DNA from: an uncultured Dehalococcoidia bacterium
GTDB taxonomy: Bacteria; Chloroflexota; Dehalococcoidia; Dehalococcoidales; UBA1222
NCBI GenBank assembly: GCA_903844845.1
Contig: CAIMVG010000025.1
Coordinates: 1-50,005, forward strand
DNA length: 50,005 nt
Reading direction: 5' to 3'
Both the position numbers and the translations under genes were made by a program. This document shows, piece by piece, positions 24,901 to 31,971 of the stretch. Every line of letters starts with the position of its first letter. Position 1 is the stretch's first letter. The notes beneath the pieces are model-generated. The model did no database searches. It had not been told where the DNA came from and saw nothing but the letters and a program-made list of their open reading frames with translations.

Positions 24901-25599
24901 ATGTCAGAAACACTGGGAAAGATAGAAAAACCCGAGGCCAGCCAATTCAAGTTCGGCCGCAAGCTTTTCTTCGTGCCGCTCATCTTTAGATCCATCGAAA
25001 AAGATGCGTCGCTCTCAGAATTGGCATCACGTTATTGGAGCGAGGTTGAAAACCAGATAGACGGGCTGGAATCCAAGCTTTCAGCGGTAAAAAGAATATA
25101 TCATGAGATGCTTGTGGGCGAGGACGATTCCCGACACCTGAGTGAACTGAGCTCGGGAAGCGAGAAACTTGTTGGAATCTTAAAGAACAGAGGGGGCGTG
25201 TTAACCTATATCGAGGACCCCGAGGTACTGGGTGAGTTCCTGGACTGGGGGCGGTGTATCTCAATCGGATTACGCAGCCCGGCAGTCTTTGAAAAAGTCT
25301 ACAAGGCTTATGAAGAAGCGGACTGTAAGCGCCTCGAACTGCTCGCCAAAAAGATCGATGAAACGCTCGGGACGGATGAATCCTCGGTTTTATTCATGCG
25401 TGAAGACCACAGACTCCAATTTCCTTCAGATATCCAGGTATTCTACGTAGCTCCGCCCTCGCTAGATGCGATCCAGCGGGCTCTGAGAGAGAAACAGGAA
25501 GAGAGGCGCCGACGCGCCGGTCAAGAACAAGAGCACGAACATGCGAACGACAGCGACCACGAGCATCCAGACGAACCGCCAAAATCGGAAAACGATTAA
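24901..25599 (+). CDS. uncharacterised soluble protein with His/Glu-rich tail
   Basis: Not recognised; 232 aa. It has a strong ribosome site (GAGGAGG) and its own promoter, so it is probably well expressed. Residues 1-195 look like a mostly helical globular domain, with segments SELASRYWSEVENQIDGLESKL and LSSGSEKLVGILKNRGG. A cysteine at position 118 lies in GRCISIGL and one at 141 in EADCKR. The last 35 residues are very polar (RRRRAG, then EQEHEHANDSDHEHPDEPP), a histidine/acid tail that could bind divalent metals. No signal peptide or membrane helix is seen. It is monocistronic and followed by a strong hairpin. Confidence 0.85.
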   Translation: MSETLGKIEKPEASQFKFGRKLFFVPLIFRSIEKDASLSELASRYWSEVENQIDGLESKLSAVKRIYHEMLVGEDDSRHLSELSSGSEKLVGILKNRGGVLTYIEDPEVLGEFLDWGRCISIGLRSPAVFEKVYKAYEEADCKRLELLAKKIDETLGTDESSVLFMREDHRLQFPSDIQVFYVAPPSLDAIQRALREKQEERRRRAGQEQEHEHANDSDHEHPDEPPKSEND

Positions 25600-27950: not shown

Positions 27951-27977
27951 AAAAAGCCCCCAAATAGGGGGCTTTTT
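27951..27977 (+). terminator. rho-independent terminator
   Basis: An 11-bp stem AAAAAGCCCCC / GGGGGCTTTTT with loop AAATA and its own U-run, 49 bases after the (2Fe-2S) gene stop. A near-perfect intrinsic terminator that also works in reverse. Confidence 0.9.
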
Positions 27978-27995: not shown

Positions 27996-28012
27996 TGGTA
28001 GCGCATACGGGA
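27996..28012 (-). repeat. displaced tRNA-Glu 3' end with CCA (left attachment site)
   Basis: Read on the minus strand this is the last part of the T-stem, the acceptor strand ATGCGCT, discriminator A and CCA. Positions 27998-28012 are identical over 15 bases to 31094-31108 in the intact tRNA-Glu, in the same orientation. This copy has an encoded CCA and the intact gene does not, as expected if an element recombined into the original tRNA 3' end and supplied a new one. Confidence 0.75.
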
Positions 28013-28042
28013 CGCATGACTAGGCACGATAACCGCCCCTAA

Positions 28043-28537
28043 CAGGCGTCAAATAGCTCGCCTGCGTTAAATGTGCACTCTCAATTCCACGCCTGGGATA
28101 ATAGCTACGTCTTTACCGAGCCCAAGAGTGAACACAGCCGGCGCGCCATAGCCCTTTCACCCTCCGTCATCAATCTCCTGAAGCGAGCCAAGGAAAGGCG
28201 GAAGCTGGACTTGATCGACTATGGTTTGCCCTTCTCTGAAGACAGTGGGGTATTCACCAGCATTGACGGGAAGCCCTTCCGGCCCAACACCATCACCCGG
28301 GCCTGGCATGACGCTGCCAAACACGCCGGGGTGAAAGATATCCGGCTGCATGACGCCCGGCATACCCACGCCTCGATCATGCTGAAAAGGGGAATACATC
28401 CCAAGATAGTCCAAGAAAGGCTGGGCCATTCCAGCATCCAGATGACTCTAGATACCTACAGCCATGTGGCCCCGGGCCTGCAGCAAAAAGCTGCGGAAGC
28501 CTTTGAGACGGCGTTAAATCCGGTGGTGGTGGTCTGA
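28043..28537 (+). pseudogene. truncated tyrosine recombinase/integrase (C-terminal catalytic part)
   Basis: Frame open from 28043; the first usable start is GTG 28073 (154 aa). It carries the second half of a phage-integrase catalytic domain: beta-hairpin Lys in FTEPKSEHSRRAI, the HDARH box, LGHSS and the nucleophile Tyr in LDTYSHV. The N-terminal DNA-binding domain and the catalytic region with the first active-site Arg are missing. The homology begins abruptly after a TAA at 28040. That makes it a remnant that could not catalyse recombination alone. It lies 31 bases inside the left tRNA repeat, as expected for the integrase of the surrounding element. Confidence 0.88.
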
Positions 28538-28650
28538 TGGTTATCGAGCCCAGCTCATCCAAACTCGCCGATGTACTTCCCTTCTACGGGACGTTGCAAC
28601 CGCGATAACCATTTTTAAGATAACTTATTTAACTTGTGTCCGCATGGGAG

Positions 28651-28656
28651 TATCAT
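28651..28656 (+). promoter_or_regulatory. -10 box of a leaderless small gene
   Basis: TATCAT lies six bases before ATG 28663, with TTAACT (28629-28634) 16 bases upstream as a -35. No ribosome site is seen. Confidence 0.45.
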
Positions 28657-28662
28657 AGTTTT

Positions 28663-28950
28663 ATGATAAATACGAACAATATTCATCGAGTGATAACACA
28701 GATAATAGGATACCTAGCGATAGCTTCGCTGATTGGTGCACTTTACTGTTTTCTCCTTCTTATGGACAAAAGCCCTTGGCCTGCTGTGTCGGTGATATTA
28801 CTTGGTGTAGGTTCGACGCTTAGCGTGGTTGGGTTTACTCGAACTGGTGGAAATAGAGGGCCAGCCATATTTGCTCTAATACTAGCTGTTCCGATGCTGG
28901 CTAGTTTTATTTTACTTTCGGTACCAGTGCTTCTCAGACACCTCGGATAG
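28663..28950 (+). CDS. small membrane protein
   Basis: Protein of 95 aa with three predicted membrane helices (about residues 12-34, 40-58 and 67-90) separated by short polar turns (LMDKSPWP, FTRTGGNRG). No family is recognised. It appears leaderless, with TATCAT ending six bases before ATG 28663. It lies inside the putative tRNA-Glu element, between the recombinase remnant and the sigma factor, 143 bases before the latter. Confidence 0.65.
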   Translation: MINTNNIHRVITQIIGYLAIASLIGALYCFLLLMDKSPWPAVSVILLGVGSTLSVVGFTRTGGNRGPAIFALILAVPMLASFILLSVPVLLRHLG

Positions 28951-29080
28951 CCTACCGCTTCATAGAATGGCAGCCATACCTATTTGTCCCCAATAGCCCA
29001 TTAACCCTTTCCCCTCTCCGTCCAACTCATTACCTTTAATATTGTTCTGTGAGTGCAACCTTTTTGCCCTTCGCCGGTTA

Positions 29081-29086
29081 TATAAT
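29081..29086 (+). promoter_or_regulatory. -10 box of the leaderless sigma-factor gene
   Basis: Perfect TATAAT ending seven bases before ATG 29094. No good TTGACA-like -35 is present at 16-18 bases, so an alternative holoenzyme, perhaps the sigma factor itself, may recognise this promoter. Confidence 0.55.
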
Positions 29087-29093
29087 AGCTTTG

Positions 29094-29669
29094 ATGGAAT
29101 TAGAACAGGAACGGCAACTTGTAGAGCGGGCAAAATCCGACCCTCTGGCTTTCGGCATTCTCTACGAAGAATACTTCAACCAGATATTCGGTTATGTTTT
29201 ACGCCGGACAGCTGACTTGTCCATTTCGCAGGACGTTACTGCCGAAGTCTTCTTTAAAGCGTTGAGAAACATCAAATCTTTCCACTGGCGGGGTATTCCT
29301 TTTTCAGACTGGCTATATCGCATAACCATTCATGAAATAGCCAATGTTTATTCCCATAATGGGCATGACCGTATCCTGACGGAAGAAATTAAAATTGCAT
29401 CCGCGCTTTTTGATCAAACGGTTGAAGATGAGGCTGAGGAAGCTCAAGCCAACCTTGAAAAAGAGGCAGAATTTATAATCATCAAGAATTGTATTAATGA
29501 ACTTCCCCCCAAATACCGCGAAGTAATAACCCTGCGCTTTTTCGAAAAGAAGCAGTTGAATGAGATTGCCAGGATACTCGGCAAAAAAGACGGCACAGTT
29601 AAATCTCTGTTGCATCGTGGGCTCGAAAAGCTCCGCGTTAAAATGCAAGATAAAGGTGCAACCTTTTAG
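29094..29669 (+). CDS. ECF-type RNA polymerase sigma factor
   Basis: Sigma-70 family factor of 191 aa. Region 2 is FGILYEEYFNQIFGYVLRR to FKALRNIKSFHW, followed by a variable acidic linker (about residues 105-125). Region 4 is IKNCINELPPKYREVITLRF then LNEIARILGKKDGTVKSLLHRGLEKLR, a helix-turn-helix for -35 contact. There is no region 1 or 3, hence ECF class. ATG 29094 is chosen because TATAAT ends seven bases upstream and the frame upstream is not sigma-like. The membrane-protein gene 37 bases downstream is its likely anti-sigma partner. Both lie inside the putative integrated element. Confidence 0.92.
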   Translation: MELEQERQLVERAKSDPLAFGILYEEYFNQIFGYVLRRTADLSISQDVTAEVFFKALRNIKSFHWRGIPFSDWLYRITIHEIANVYSHNGHDRILTEEIKIASALFDQTVEDEAEEAQANLEKEAEFIIIKNCINELPPKYREVITLRFFEKKQLNEIARILGKKDGTVKSLLHRGLEKLRVKMQDKGATF

Positions 29670-29706
29670 AGGATTGGCGGTTCTATCAATACAGGGAGGC
29701 TGAAAT

Positions 29707-30498
29707 ATGGAAGAAGATAAGTTAACCGAAAAGCTATCCAGTATAGAACTACCGGAGGTTGAATCCCTAGCCTTTCGCCGGAATTTGCACCAGGCGTTGC
29801 TTAATCACGCCCAGGCACCGGAGTTTAAGCAACCTGGCAGGCTTAGCCTCAAATTGGAATCTATGTCTTCGGGTTTCCGTAATTATTTCATCGTGCCCAA
29901 GCCAGCATGGCAGATGGTGTTGCTGGGTGGCCTCATCACCTGCGTTCTTGGCACGTCGATTGGCGTCCCGGTATATGCGAAACAGATTGAACAAAACAGA
30001 AACGCGACGACGCCGGTATATGTATTTTCGTTCCCGCCCACTGAAAGCGGCCTCACCCTTGACCAGTTGAAACAAAAGATGGGGCGCCTGTGGATCCCGG
30101 GATACATTCCGCCGGGATACGTCTTTAAATCCGCCAGCGCTACTGTAGGGTATGATGCCTTCATACAATATCAATTCAAGAATTCATCCTTTTTAAATAT
30201 ATCCGAAACACCCCGGCCACCTATCGGCGGGAAGCCTTCTTATCCTGAGGACAAAATGGAAGCTGTAACGGTAAATGGGTACAGCGGTTATCTTGTGCAC
30301 GGCGGATGGTTAAGCGTCGTTCAATCTGGCGCTACCTTGCCTCCGGTGCCTGATACTAAGAATGCTGTTTGGAATGATACCTGGATGGCCCAACTATGGC
30401 TCAACATAGATGGTTGGGGTGTTAACTTCCTAGTTACTGGAACCGGGTGGACCGACGAGATGCTGATTCAGATAGCCAGTTCTCTGTATGAATATTAG
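29707..30498 (+). CDS. single-pass membrane protein, likely anti-sigma partner (DUF4367-like)
   Basis: Protein of 263 aa. A cytoplasmic N-terminal segment of about 65 residues (KLSSIELPEVESLAFRRNL) precedes one membrane helix at about 70-93 (MVLLGGLITCVLGTSIGVPVYA). An external domain follows with the DUF4367-type pattern: LWIPGYIPPGYVFKSA, then VNGYSGYLVHGGW and a final IASSLYEY. DUF4367 domains often follow ECF sigma factors as sensors or anti-sigma proteins. No zinc-binding anti-sigma motif is seen in the N-terminus. A ribosome site CAGGGAGG precedes ATG 29707. The anti-sigma role is inferred from topology and position. Confidence 0.82.
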   Translation: MEEDKLTEKLSSIELPEVESLAFRRNLHQALLNHAQAPEFKQPGRLSLKLESMSSGFRNYFIVPKPAWQMVLLGGLITCVLGTSIGVPVYAKQIEQNRNATTPVYVFSFPPTESGLTLDQLKQKMGRLWIPGYIPPGYVFKSASATVGYDAFIQYQFKNSSFLNISETPRPPIGGKPSYPEDKMEAVTVNGYSGYLVHGGWLSVVQSGATLPPVPDTKNAVWNDTWMAQLWLNIDGWGVNFLVTGTGWTDEMLIQIASSLYEY

Positions 30499-30601
30499 GC
30501 TTCAACGAGCAATACGATTACCCAACATATCATCAATAGGAGACAGGAACGCATTAAAACGTAAGGATGGAATGGTACCCCAATGTTTGTTGCTACTTTA
30601 A

Positions 30602-30937
30602 TCAGCCAAATTCAGAAGCCAGAGTGACATCGGCTCCATCGATGTAAAACGGGCTGTCCACGAAGGCACCACGGCTCTGAGTACAAACAAGATACCAATC
30701 CTTCTTTTCAAAGATTGCTACAACTATCTCGCCACCTTCACCCAGCCGCTTGCCAACTGCGATTTCACTTTTACCAACGTTGACGGCGCCGTGATGCTCC
30801 GTTTCAAGTTTGTATATTCTGCGGTCGGTAATGGCAAAGCCGGTGGTAGACTGGACGTAATCCCGGAGGCTTGTGTAAAGCTCTTCCTGGCGCTGTTTAC
30901 TTTGCAAAGGGATAAATAAACGTGGTGGGTTATCCAT
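30602..30937 (-). CDS. uncharacterised protein
   Basis: Soluble protein of 111 aa, no family recognised. It has a mixed alpha/beta look, with segments RQEELYTSLRDYVQSTTGFAI, DRRIYKLETEHHG and VVAIFEKKDWYLVCTQSRG. The KDWYLVCTQSRG stretch could be a strand-turn-strand. The ribosome site upstream of ATG 30937 is weak. It lies on the strand opposite the sigma gene pair, the last gene before the intact tRNA-Glu. The 157 bases between it and the tRNA hold two GTTATCG motifs. Confidence 0.6.
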   Translation of the reverse strand: MDNPPRLFIPLQSKQRQEELYTSLRDYVQSTTGFAITDRRIYKLETEHHGAVNVGKSEIAVGKRLGEGGEIVVAIFEKKDWYLVCTQSRGAFVDSPFYIDGADVTLASEFG

Positions 30938-31031
30938 TTTTTTTGAGCCCCGAATTTATCTTATCCGTGCCTGCAAACTATGTCAAAATAGTAACGGCCG
31001 CGGGCAATTCGTGCCTAAAATCAACCCACGC

Positions 31032-31049
31032 GTTATCGTTCCGTTATCG
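31032..31049 (+). repeat. tandem GTTATCG motifs near the right attachment site
   Basis: GTTATCG at 31032-31038 and again at 31043-31049, spaced 11 bases start to start, 45-62 bases inside the right att repeat. The same motif, inverted, lies 15 bases inside the left repeat at 28027-28033, and as an inverted pair at 28540 and 28603. The arrangement resembles integrase arm-type sites. Confidence 0.4.
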
Positions 31050-31094
31050 TTTTTAGGTTATGTAAAGGTTTTTGTGGCTAAAAATGGGGTAGAG

Positions 31095-31168
31095 TAGCGC
31101 ATACGGGATTCGAACCCGTGGTCTCGTCCTTGAGAGGGACGCGTCCTAGGCCTCTAGACGAATGCGCC
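31095..31168 (-). tRNA. tRNA-Glu (anticodon CTC)
   Basis: Full cloverleaf on the minus strand: acceptor GGCGCAT/ATGCGCT, D-arm GTC...GAC, anticodon stem CGTCC/GGACG with loop CTCTCAA (anticodon CTC), and T-arm ACGGG/CCCGT with TTCGAAT. Reads codon GAG. Unlike tRNA-Gln and tRNA-Thr in this window, no CCA is encoded; the bases after discriminator A are CTC. Its last 15 bases recur at 27998-28012. Confidence 0.95.
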
Positions 31169-31260: not shown

Positions 31261-31971
31261 CTATTCCTGAACGGCGCCCGAATCGTGCTGGATGATATAC
31301 CCCGATTTGGGTATGGTGCGAATCAGTATAGGACTCTCGGGATTTTTTTCGAGCTTGCCGCGCAATCGGCTTATCCAGGTCCTCAGCAGTTGGACATCAC
31401 CCTGATATTCAGAACCCCAGACCCGGCTCAGCAACTCTTCATAAGTCATAAATCGCCCTGAGCTCTGCACAAGTTCGGTCAGCAACAGCCACTCTATGCG
31501 GGTAAGATATTTTTCCTCACCCGCGACAGTGACGATATGTTGTTTGAAATCGATGTTTACATCGCCGTGAACAAACAGTTCAAGGGTCTTGCGTTTGTCC
31601 TGCGGTTCGATGCGGCGCCGCACGGCTTCAATCCGGGCAACCAGTTCATCAGGATTGAAAGGTTTGGAAAGATAATCGTCCGCACCCAACTTGAGACCGC
31701 GGATCTTTTCGTCGTCTTCGCCACGGGCCGTCAGCATGATAACAGGGGTAGTTGCAAAGGTGCGCAACTCGCGCATGGCTTCAAGGCCGTCCATCTGAGG
31801 CATCACGAGATCAAGAATTACGAGATCGGGGTTCTTAGAACGGACCTGGTCGAGTGCCTAGATCCCGTTCGCCGCAGTGCAGACATCATACCCGGCAGAC
31901 TTAAGACGTACGTTTAAAAAATTGATAATACGCTCGTCGTCATCGGCTACAAGGATACTAAAACGTTTCAT
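31261..31971 (-). pseudogene. OmpR-family response regulator with in-frame amber codon
   Basis: Reading from ATG 31971 gives a receiver domain (FSILVADDDERIINFL, phospho-acceptor Asp in LVILDLVMPQMDG, Lys in SKPFNPDEL) and an OmpR-type winged helix (RIEWLLLTELVQ, TIPKSGYII). It would be 236 codons, but codon 38 (31858-31860) is TAG, in NGI-stop-ALDQV, where related proteins usually have Glu (GAG). One base change would restore it. Without readthrough the product lacks the acidic pocket. An internal start at 31806 gives a fragment without the phosphorylated Asp. No histidine kinase is nearby. It could be a real nonsense mutation, suppression or an assembly error. Confidence 0.9.

Follow-up and report, generated by a model that had tools for sequence, protein, structure and literature searches.

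Within the 50,005-nucleotide stretch of DNA analysed here (the window; contig CAIMVG010000025.1 of an uncultured Dehalococcoidia bacterium), a 3.1-kb segment is foreign DNA inserted into the 3' end of a tRNA-Glu(CTC) gene, as an earlier sequence-only reading had observed. This segment encodes an extracytoplasmic function (ECF) sigma factor and an adjacent membrane partner. The whole arrangement is probably explained by integration at tRNA-Glu followed by one internal deletion, which would have left a grounded remnant carrying an autoregulated sigma/partner cargo. Genomes, contigs and loci are designated below by the letters G, C and L, respectively.

Boundaries at tRNA-Glu(CTC)

The following features delimit the segment and its integration site:

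27998-28012, plus strand: 15-bp attachment core at the far end, identical to 31094-31108
31094-31108, plus strand: 15-bp attachment core on the tRNA side, GTAGCGCATACGGGA
31094-31168, minus strand: tRNA-Glu(CTC), the integration target, with its encoded CCA now absent
27996-27998, minus strand: CCA originally 3' of the tRNA-Glu acceptor stem, stranded at the far end of the element
27951-27977, minus strand: terminator hairpin with an 11-bp stem and a T tract, putatively the tRNA-Glu gene's own, displaced by 3.1 kb

The repeat bracketing the element is exact, as had been claimed, and GTAGCGCATACGGGA occurs in the window in these two copies only, with a tolerance of up to three mismatches adding just two poorer matches. 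It corresponds to the 3' end of the minus-strand tRNA-Glu(CTC), up to C74. By our own estimate, a same-strand 15-mer match within about 5 kb would arise by chance with a probability of about 5e-6, which agrees with the earlier judgement that coincidence is very unlikely. In the relatives G001, G003, G004, G005 and G007 a CCA is encoded immediately 3' of the acceptor stem, whereas the window has CTC at that place; the far core copy, read on the minus strand, gives ...GCGCTACCA, and the CCA is present there. Beyond this displaced CCA is positioned the strongest terminator-like hairpin of the region (27977-27951, minus strand), and a similar hairpin lies 3' of the tRNA-Glu-CCA in G004. Joining the window's two host flanks restores the order of tRNA, CCA, short spacer and hairpin, closely resembling the tRNA-Glu of G004. 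The left flank is also an old neighbour of tRNA-Glu, a homologue of the window gene at 24901-25599 being located on the 3' side of tRNA-Glu in both G006 and G002. Taken together, the low chance of the repeat, the CTC after the window's tRNA, the CCA at the far copy and the hairpin beyond it fit an insertion, and the layout is that of a tRNA-integrated island, with a direct repeat of the tRNA 3' end, the whole tRNA on one side and its original 3' flank on the other.

Related elements occupy the same tRNA in other genomes. G046 (JACPPV01), a different species, harbors a 7.6-kb element at tRNA-Glu(CTC), with a repeated 16-bp core, ATCCGGTATGCGCTAC, at the same tRNA position as in the window and the CCA kept at the far end. 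Its integrase directly adjoins the tRNA, consists of two overlapping frames that together appear near full-length, and is 59% identical to the window fragment in its C-terminal part, while the interior contains small frames besides a Prim-Pol/D5-type replication gene. This element resembles that of the window in its tRNA, core position, displaced CCA, related integrase and 11-bp-spaced arm pairs, but differs in its longer, tRNA-adjacent integrase, arm pairs at both ends, replication gene and lack of sigma cargo. In addition, an integrase C-terminal fragment adjoins tRNA-Glu(CTC) in G024, as does a long open frame of the same integrase family in G106. tRNA-Glu(CTC) is therefore a used site.

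Integrase fragment, arm sites and cargo slot

The integration apparatus is represented by four features:

28013-28087, plus strand: remaining outer left end of the element; integrase homology begins at about 28088 and the inner left arm pair is missing
28073-28537, plus strand: tyrosine recombinase fragment, the C-terminal ~150 of ~394 residues, with positions 1-50 of the Pfam catalytic domain missing
28540-28546, plus strand: single GTTATCG, a possible arm-site relic right after the integrase stop, positioned as are relatives' arm sites
31032-31049 (feature row 31031-31051), plus strand: arm-site pair GTTATCG-TTCC-GTTATCG, laid out as at relatives' integrase ends

The recombinase was rightly described as truncated. 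It matches the Pfam family Phage_integrase with an E value of 2.5e-20 over profile positions 51-169 of 172, and its frame aligns to residues ~230 to ~374 of relatives of ~394 residues, with the N-terminal ~230 residues missing and about 50-65% identity to the nearest relatives in the C-terminal catalytic homology. A functional integrase, expected of an autonomous island and not required of a remnant, is thus lacking in the window. The domains of the family (Arm-DNA-bind_4/SAM_3/Phage_integrase) are displayed by an intact member on C5 of the same genome. Orphan C-terminal pieces of such integrases, about 50-90 residues long, are numerous across the order, and those examined (G024, L255 and L273) lie beside or near tRNA genes. 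The same integrase family is also found at tRNA 5' sides, in L103 and L115, where the 5' half of the tRNA is repeated over 37-38 bp.

At most surveyed loci, the integrase reads toward the tRNA and a near-identical pair of short sites, 11 bp apart, is located at its stop codon, the distance to the tRNA being about 40-110 bp from the stop and about 70 bp from the pair. The window's sites start at 31032 and 31043, with the same 11-bp spacing and 62 bp from the first site to the core. From their position, their repetition and the Arm-DNA-bind_4 domain of the intact member, we infer that such pairs are integrase arm sites. In elements with both ends visible (G046, G043 and G133:C32), arm pairs stand at both ends in the same orientation, the left pairs of G046, G043 and G133 lying ~110-140 bp from the core; the window has no left arm pair inside its far core. 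The sequence CGATAAC was considered as a mirrored left arm and rejected, because the left pairs of complete relatives have the same, not the inverted, orientation.

Arm pairs of this type also occur elsewhere in the genome. Window positions 31002-31062 are 85% identical to C23:10971-11031, beside the 3' half of a tRNA-Arg(CCT). At this second site, C5:1-4100 (L048) carries the intact integrase and cargo. On C23:1-11300 (L119), a GTTATCG arm pair accompanies the 3' half of the tRNA-Arg(CCT) and its CCA, next to type I restriction-like genes, which suggests an island that is either tandem or split. A third GTTATCG arm pair, at C8:95580-95600 (L126), has no tRNA detected nearby and is adjoined by toxin-antitoxin-like frames.

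The arm pair lies far from the integrase stop not only in the window (+2493) but also in C5 of the same genome (+1446), G133:C31 (+773), L235 (+940), L255 (+720) and L273 (+826), with the arm-to-tRNA distance kept at 64-87 bp in all of these loci. The earlier view that a signalling pair is unusual as cargo of so small an element is partly right: the sigma/partner pair fills this slot in the window, yet the pair type is widespread across the order, and the same slot elsewhere holds a STAS-like DUF4325 gene with a gene weakly like DrmA (C5), a HEPN-like protein (G133), a flavodoxin (L235), a MarR-type regulator (L255) or a 250-residue protein of no assigned family (L273). A close analogue is L255, where a 40-bp tRNA-Arg core repeat, an integrase C-terminal fragment, the MarR-type gene, the arm pair and the tRNA are arranged within ~1.3 kb, and whose outer side resembles the end of another element. 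L234 is the G133 locus again, and the tandem-like L249 was left out of the slot loci; the two locus surveys overlap, so that their counts are not additive as independent, and the named slot loci alone were checked by eye. It is conceivable, though decidedly unlikely, that the slot is general for the integrase family and that small derivatives reduced to the C-terminal end of the integrase, a single slot gene or operon and the arms on the tRNA side constitute a class that recurs, is maintained by selection and may be mobile in trans.

The sigma factor, its partner and a promoter-like motif

The regulatory cargo comprises two genes, each preceded by a motif of the same type:

29054-29081, plus strand: first promoter-like motif, preceding the sigma gene, TGCAACCTTTT-N11-GGTTAT
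29094-29669, plus strand: ECF sigma factor, 191 residues, with Sigma70_r2 and r4; TIGR02937 above cut-off, TIGR02952 below
29657-29684, plus strand: second promoter-like motif, preceding the partner gene, TGCAACCTTTT-N11-GGTTCT
29707-30498, plus strand: partner with one transmembrane segment, 263 residues, a putative anti-sigma factor/sensor; its N-terminal ~90 residues resemble partners of related sigma factors

The sigma factor contains sigma-70 regions 2 and 4 only, the domain content of an ECF factor, and its gene most likely starts at 29094, which corrects the sequence-only reading. At E <= 1e-30, relatives are present in 15 other genomes of the 156 sampled in the order, mostly with 45-57% identity, and in 0 of the 9 other genomes of its own family. 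Such a distribution, with none in the family's nine, fits horizontal acquisition. A protein with a similar N-terminus lies 3' of the sigma gene in about 19 of 21 sigma loci, as judged by eye, and the aligned partners exhibit a conserved N-terminus, then a hydrophobic segment and then variable outer domains. An adjacent protein with one transmembrane segment and an N-terminus conserved among related partners has the makings of a cognate anti-sigma factor, and the partner presumably binds the sigma factor. Its outer part has no clear relative among the searched genomes: weak partial matches, and no full-length partner, were found in the order and phylum samples, and a pattern search of genome_contigs and viral_contigs returned no close relatives. 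The absence of the sigma factor from the nine family genomes and of a full-length partner from both samples also means that neither of the patterns named beforehand as evidence against an insertion was seen, namely close relatives keeping the pair at this place without the repeat, or the same gene order without a tRNA-linked boundary. PADLOC, applied to the cargo, gave a marginal CARF match to the sigma factor alone (E 0.005), judged to be chance, and a literature search found no paper describing an ECF sigma/partner pair with DUF4367 in Chloroflexi.

Counting the window, 17 of 21 loci have the motif TGCAACCTTTT-N11/12-SGTTAT, with up to three substitutions, just 5' of the sigma gene, and it often precedes the partner gene as well. 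Such a conserved motif preceding both genes and most related sigma genes is new here. It resembles an ECF promoter, with AAC at the -35 position. The motif was first spotted in the window and a few relatives, whose copies are no test of it; the genome scans and the wider set of sigma loci are. In the genome's own 1.9 Mb, the strict motif has two exact sites, both inside the element, and with three mismatches allowed there are 14 sites versus 24 for the reversed control, which indicates that near matches carry no signal. A looser form adds a single site in this genome, C8:22179, at an unrelated frame, and a few sites not beside this sigma type in other genomes (G077, G016, G145 C25 and G147). 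Exact matches in the order are mostly at sigma/partner genes, with 0 for reversed-pattern controls.

Because motif sites concentrate at sigma/partner genes and are near-unique in the genome itself, the likeliest role of the pair is that of a self-contained, autoregulated sensor switch, and as far as promoter matches show, the sigma factor would control only itself. ECF factors often act on distant genes, and a strict scan would miss loose promoters, both of which leave some room for the earlier suggestion that the sigma factor reprograms host transcription. However, the confinement of the exact strict sites to the element (with one looser match elsewhere), near matches no more frequent than in the control and the placement of most exact sites of other genomes at sigma/partner genes do not support it, and control of host genes is regarded as quite improbable.

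Proposed history, rival explanations and significance

In the proposed history, an element of a tRNA-targeting Dehalococcoidia tyrosine-integrase family with an arm-binding domain would have entered the 3' end of tRNA-Glu(CTC), pushing the CCA and terminator to the far end, with its cargo originally between the integrase gene and the tRNA-proximal arm pair, as in some relatives. Later, a single deletion within the element, reaching from ~75 bp inside the far core to a point in the integrase gene, would have taken the left arm sites, the N-terminal portion of the integrase and further genes of the element. The outcome would be an element probably unable to move by itself, with the sigma factor, the partner and two small genes as remaining cargo, and the earlier proposal of a remnant of a larger element is supported. 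The cytoplasmic N-terminus of the partner may hold the sigma factor at the membrane until a signal at the outer domain frees it, whereupon the sigma factor would transcribe its own gene and the partner gene from two promoters of the same type. The sequence itself shows the boundaries of integration, the displaced CCA and hairpin, the arm pair, the truncated integrase and the conserved pair of motifs with its near-uniqueness in this genome; the single deletion, the lost mobility, the anti-sigma action, the sensing of a signal and the autoregulation are inferred.

Several points weigh against this history. No relative was found with the exact empty site (Fer2 gene-terminator-tRNA-Glu), G001 and G004 having broken contigs or another gene order, and these genomes are drafts in which empty sites may be hidden. 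The GTTATCG after the integrase stop (28540) and the CGATAAC at 28027 and 28603 are unexplained by a single deletion. The cargo is indeed a sigma factor with a membrane partner, as had been read, but the likeness of the partner to DUF4367 (PF14285) falls below threshold, at 14.0 bits versus a gathering score of 22.1 (E 0.072), and an AlphaFold model of the partner from its single sequence was useless (mean pLDDT 34.8) and was not used.

The segment might instead consist of two elements joined at this tRNA by tandem accretion: an inner one (28013 to ~28585), of which a remnant with the integrase fragment is left, and an outer one (~28592-31093) with cargo but no integrase. Something like a decayed junction can be seen in the GTTATCG that follows the integrase stop, together with TACGGGACG at 28585-28593 and CGATAACC at 28603. 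L249 has the appearance of a tandem case, and for ssrA in Dehalococcoides tandem islands that lack integration modules have been reported (PMC3146451). Nevertheless, the candidate middle core matches at only 9 of 15 bases, a level reached by 24% of shuffles, whereas the far core is intact despite the same freedom to drift; the middle spacing does not resemble that of relatives, there is no second left arm pair, and other loci show the order integrase-cargo-arm-tRNA with no middle core. A model with this middle core was set aside for its weak match, and since the same integrase-to-arm slot recurs in five other loci, a single element with a single internal deletion accounts better for the remnant, leaving tandem accretion unlikely.

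The segment might also be an integrase-less mini-element that related integrases in the cell still mobilise in trans. In favour of this are the intact tRNA-side arm pair and core, the two apparently full-length related integrases encoded in the genome (C5 and C28), a similar element end at C23 and the recurrence of small derivatives (L255 and L273). The missing left arm pair and the different arm units at the resident integrases (TGGTGAGTGA at C5, GTTAGC at C28, versus GTTATCG) make such mobility very improbable. Acquisition of the cargo by ordinary recombination with no mobile element involved, the repeat being chance or an old tRNA duplication, accords with a G+C content near that of the surroundings except around the sigma gene, but is scarcely credible given the exact core at the tRNA end, the transfer of CCA and hairpin, the integrase fragment, the canonical arm pair at its canonical distance and the related G046 element at the same tRNA.

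The remnant of a single inserted element can also be compared with known systems. The ssrA islands of Dehalococcoides likewise sit at the 3' end of an RNA gene, are bounded by its direct repeats and include cases without an integration module, but they use the serine recombinases DsiB/DsiA, target tmRNA and carry reductive dehalogenase cargo (PMC3146451). As far as they are described where PMC3146451 cites Pavlovic et al. 2004, CIMEs and the accretion products of integrative elements similarly comprise att-bounded cargo with no working integrase, whereas the window lacks left arm sites and a convincing middle core. The cargo itself recalls SigW-RsiW in its ECF sigma factor (phmmer E 7.9e-18 to SigW, PDB 5wuq), adjacent partner with one transmembrane segment and upstream promoter-like sites, and differs in a partner N-terminus unrecognised by Pfam, an outer domain for which the searched genomes offered no clear relative, and a further motif between the two genes.

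Two small genes complete the element:

28663-28950, plus strand: 95-residue protein with three predicted transmembrane helices, its start most likely at 28663, a correction; no family match, weak DUF6962
30602-30937, minus strand: 111-residue hypothetical protein with a 44% identical homologue in the same genome at C8:83352-83636 (L051)

By their position both are candidate outputs of the switch, and neither has an exact motif upstream. Beside the tRNA, the response-regulator gene at 31261-31971 (minus strand) contains an in-frame stop at ~31858-31860, where the sister G001 has glutamine, which cuts the receiver domain.

These observations offer a clean and testable example, from a Chloroflexota lineage with few cultures, of a tRNA island that is probably grounded, suggest where this integrase family stores cargo, and supply a candidate promoter for the sigma/partner pair type of the order. 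They also imply that a sigma factor gained by horizontal transfer does not necessarily rewire its host.

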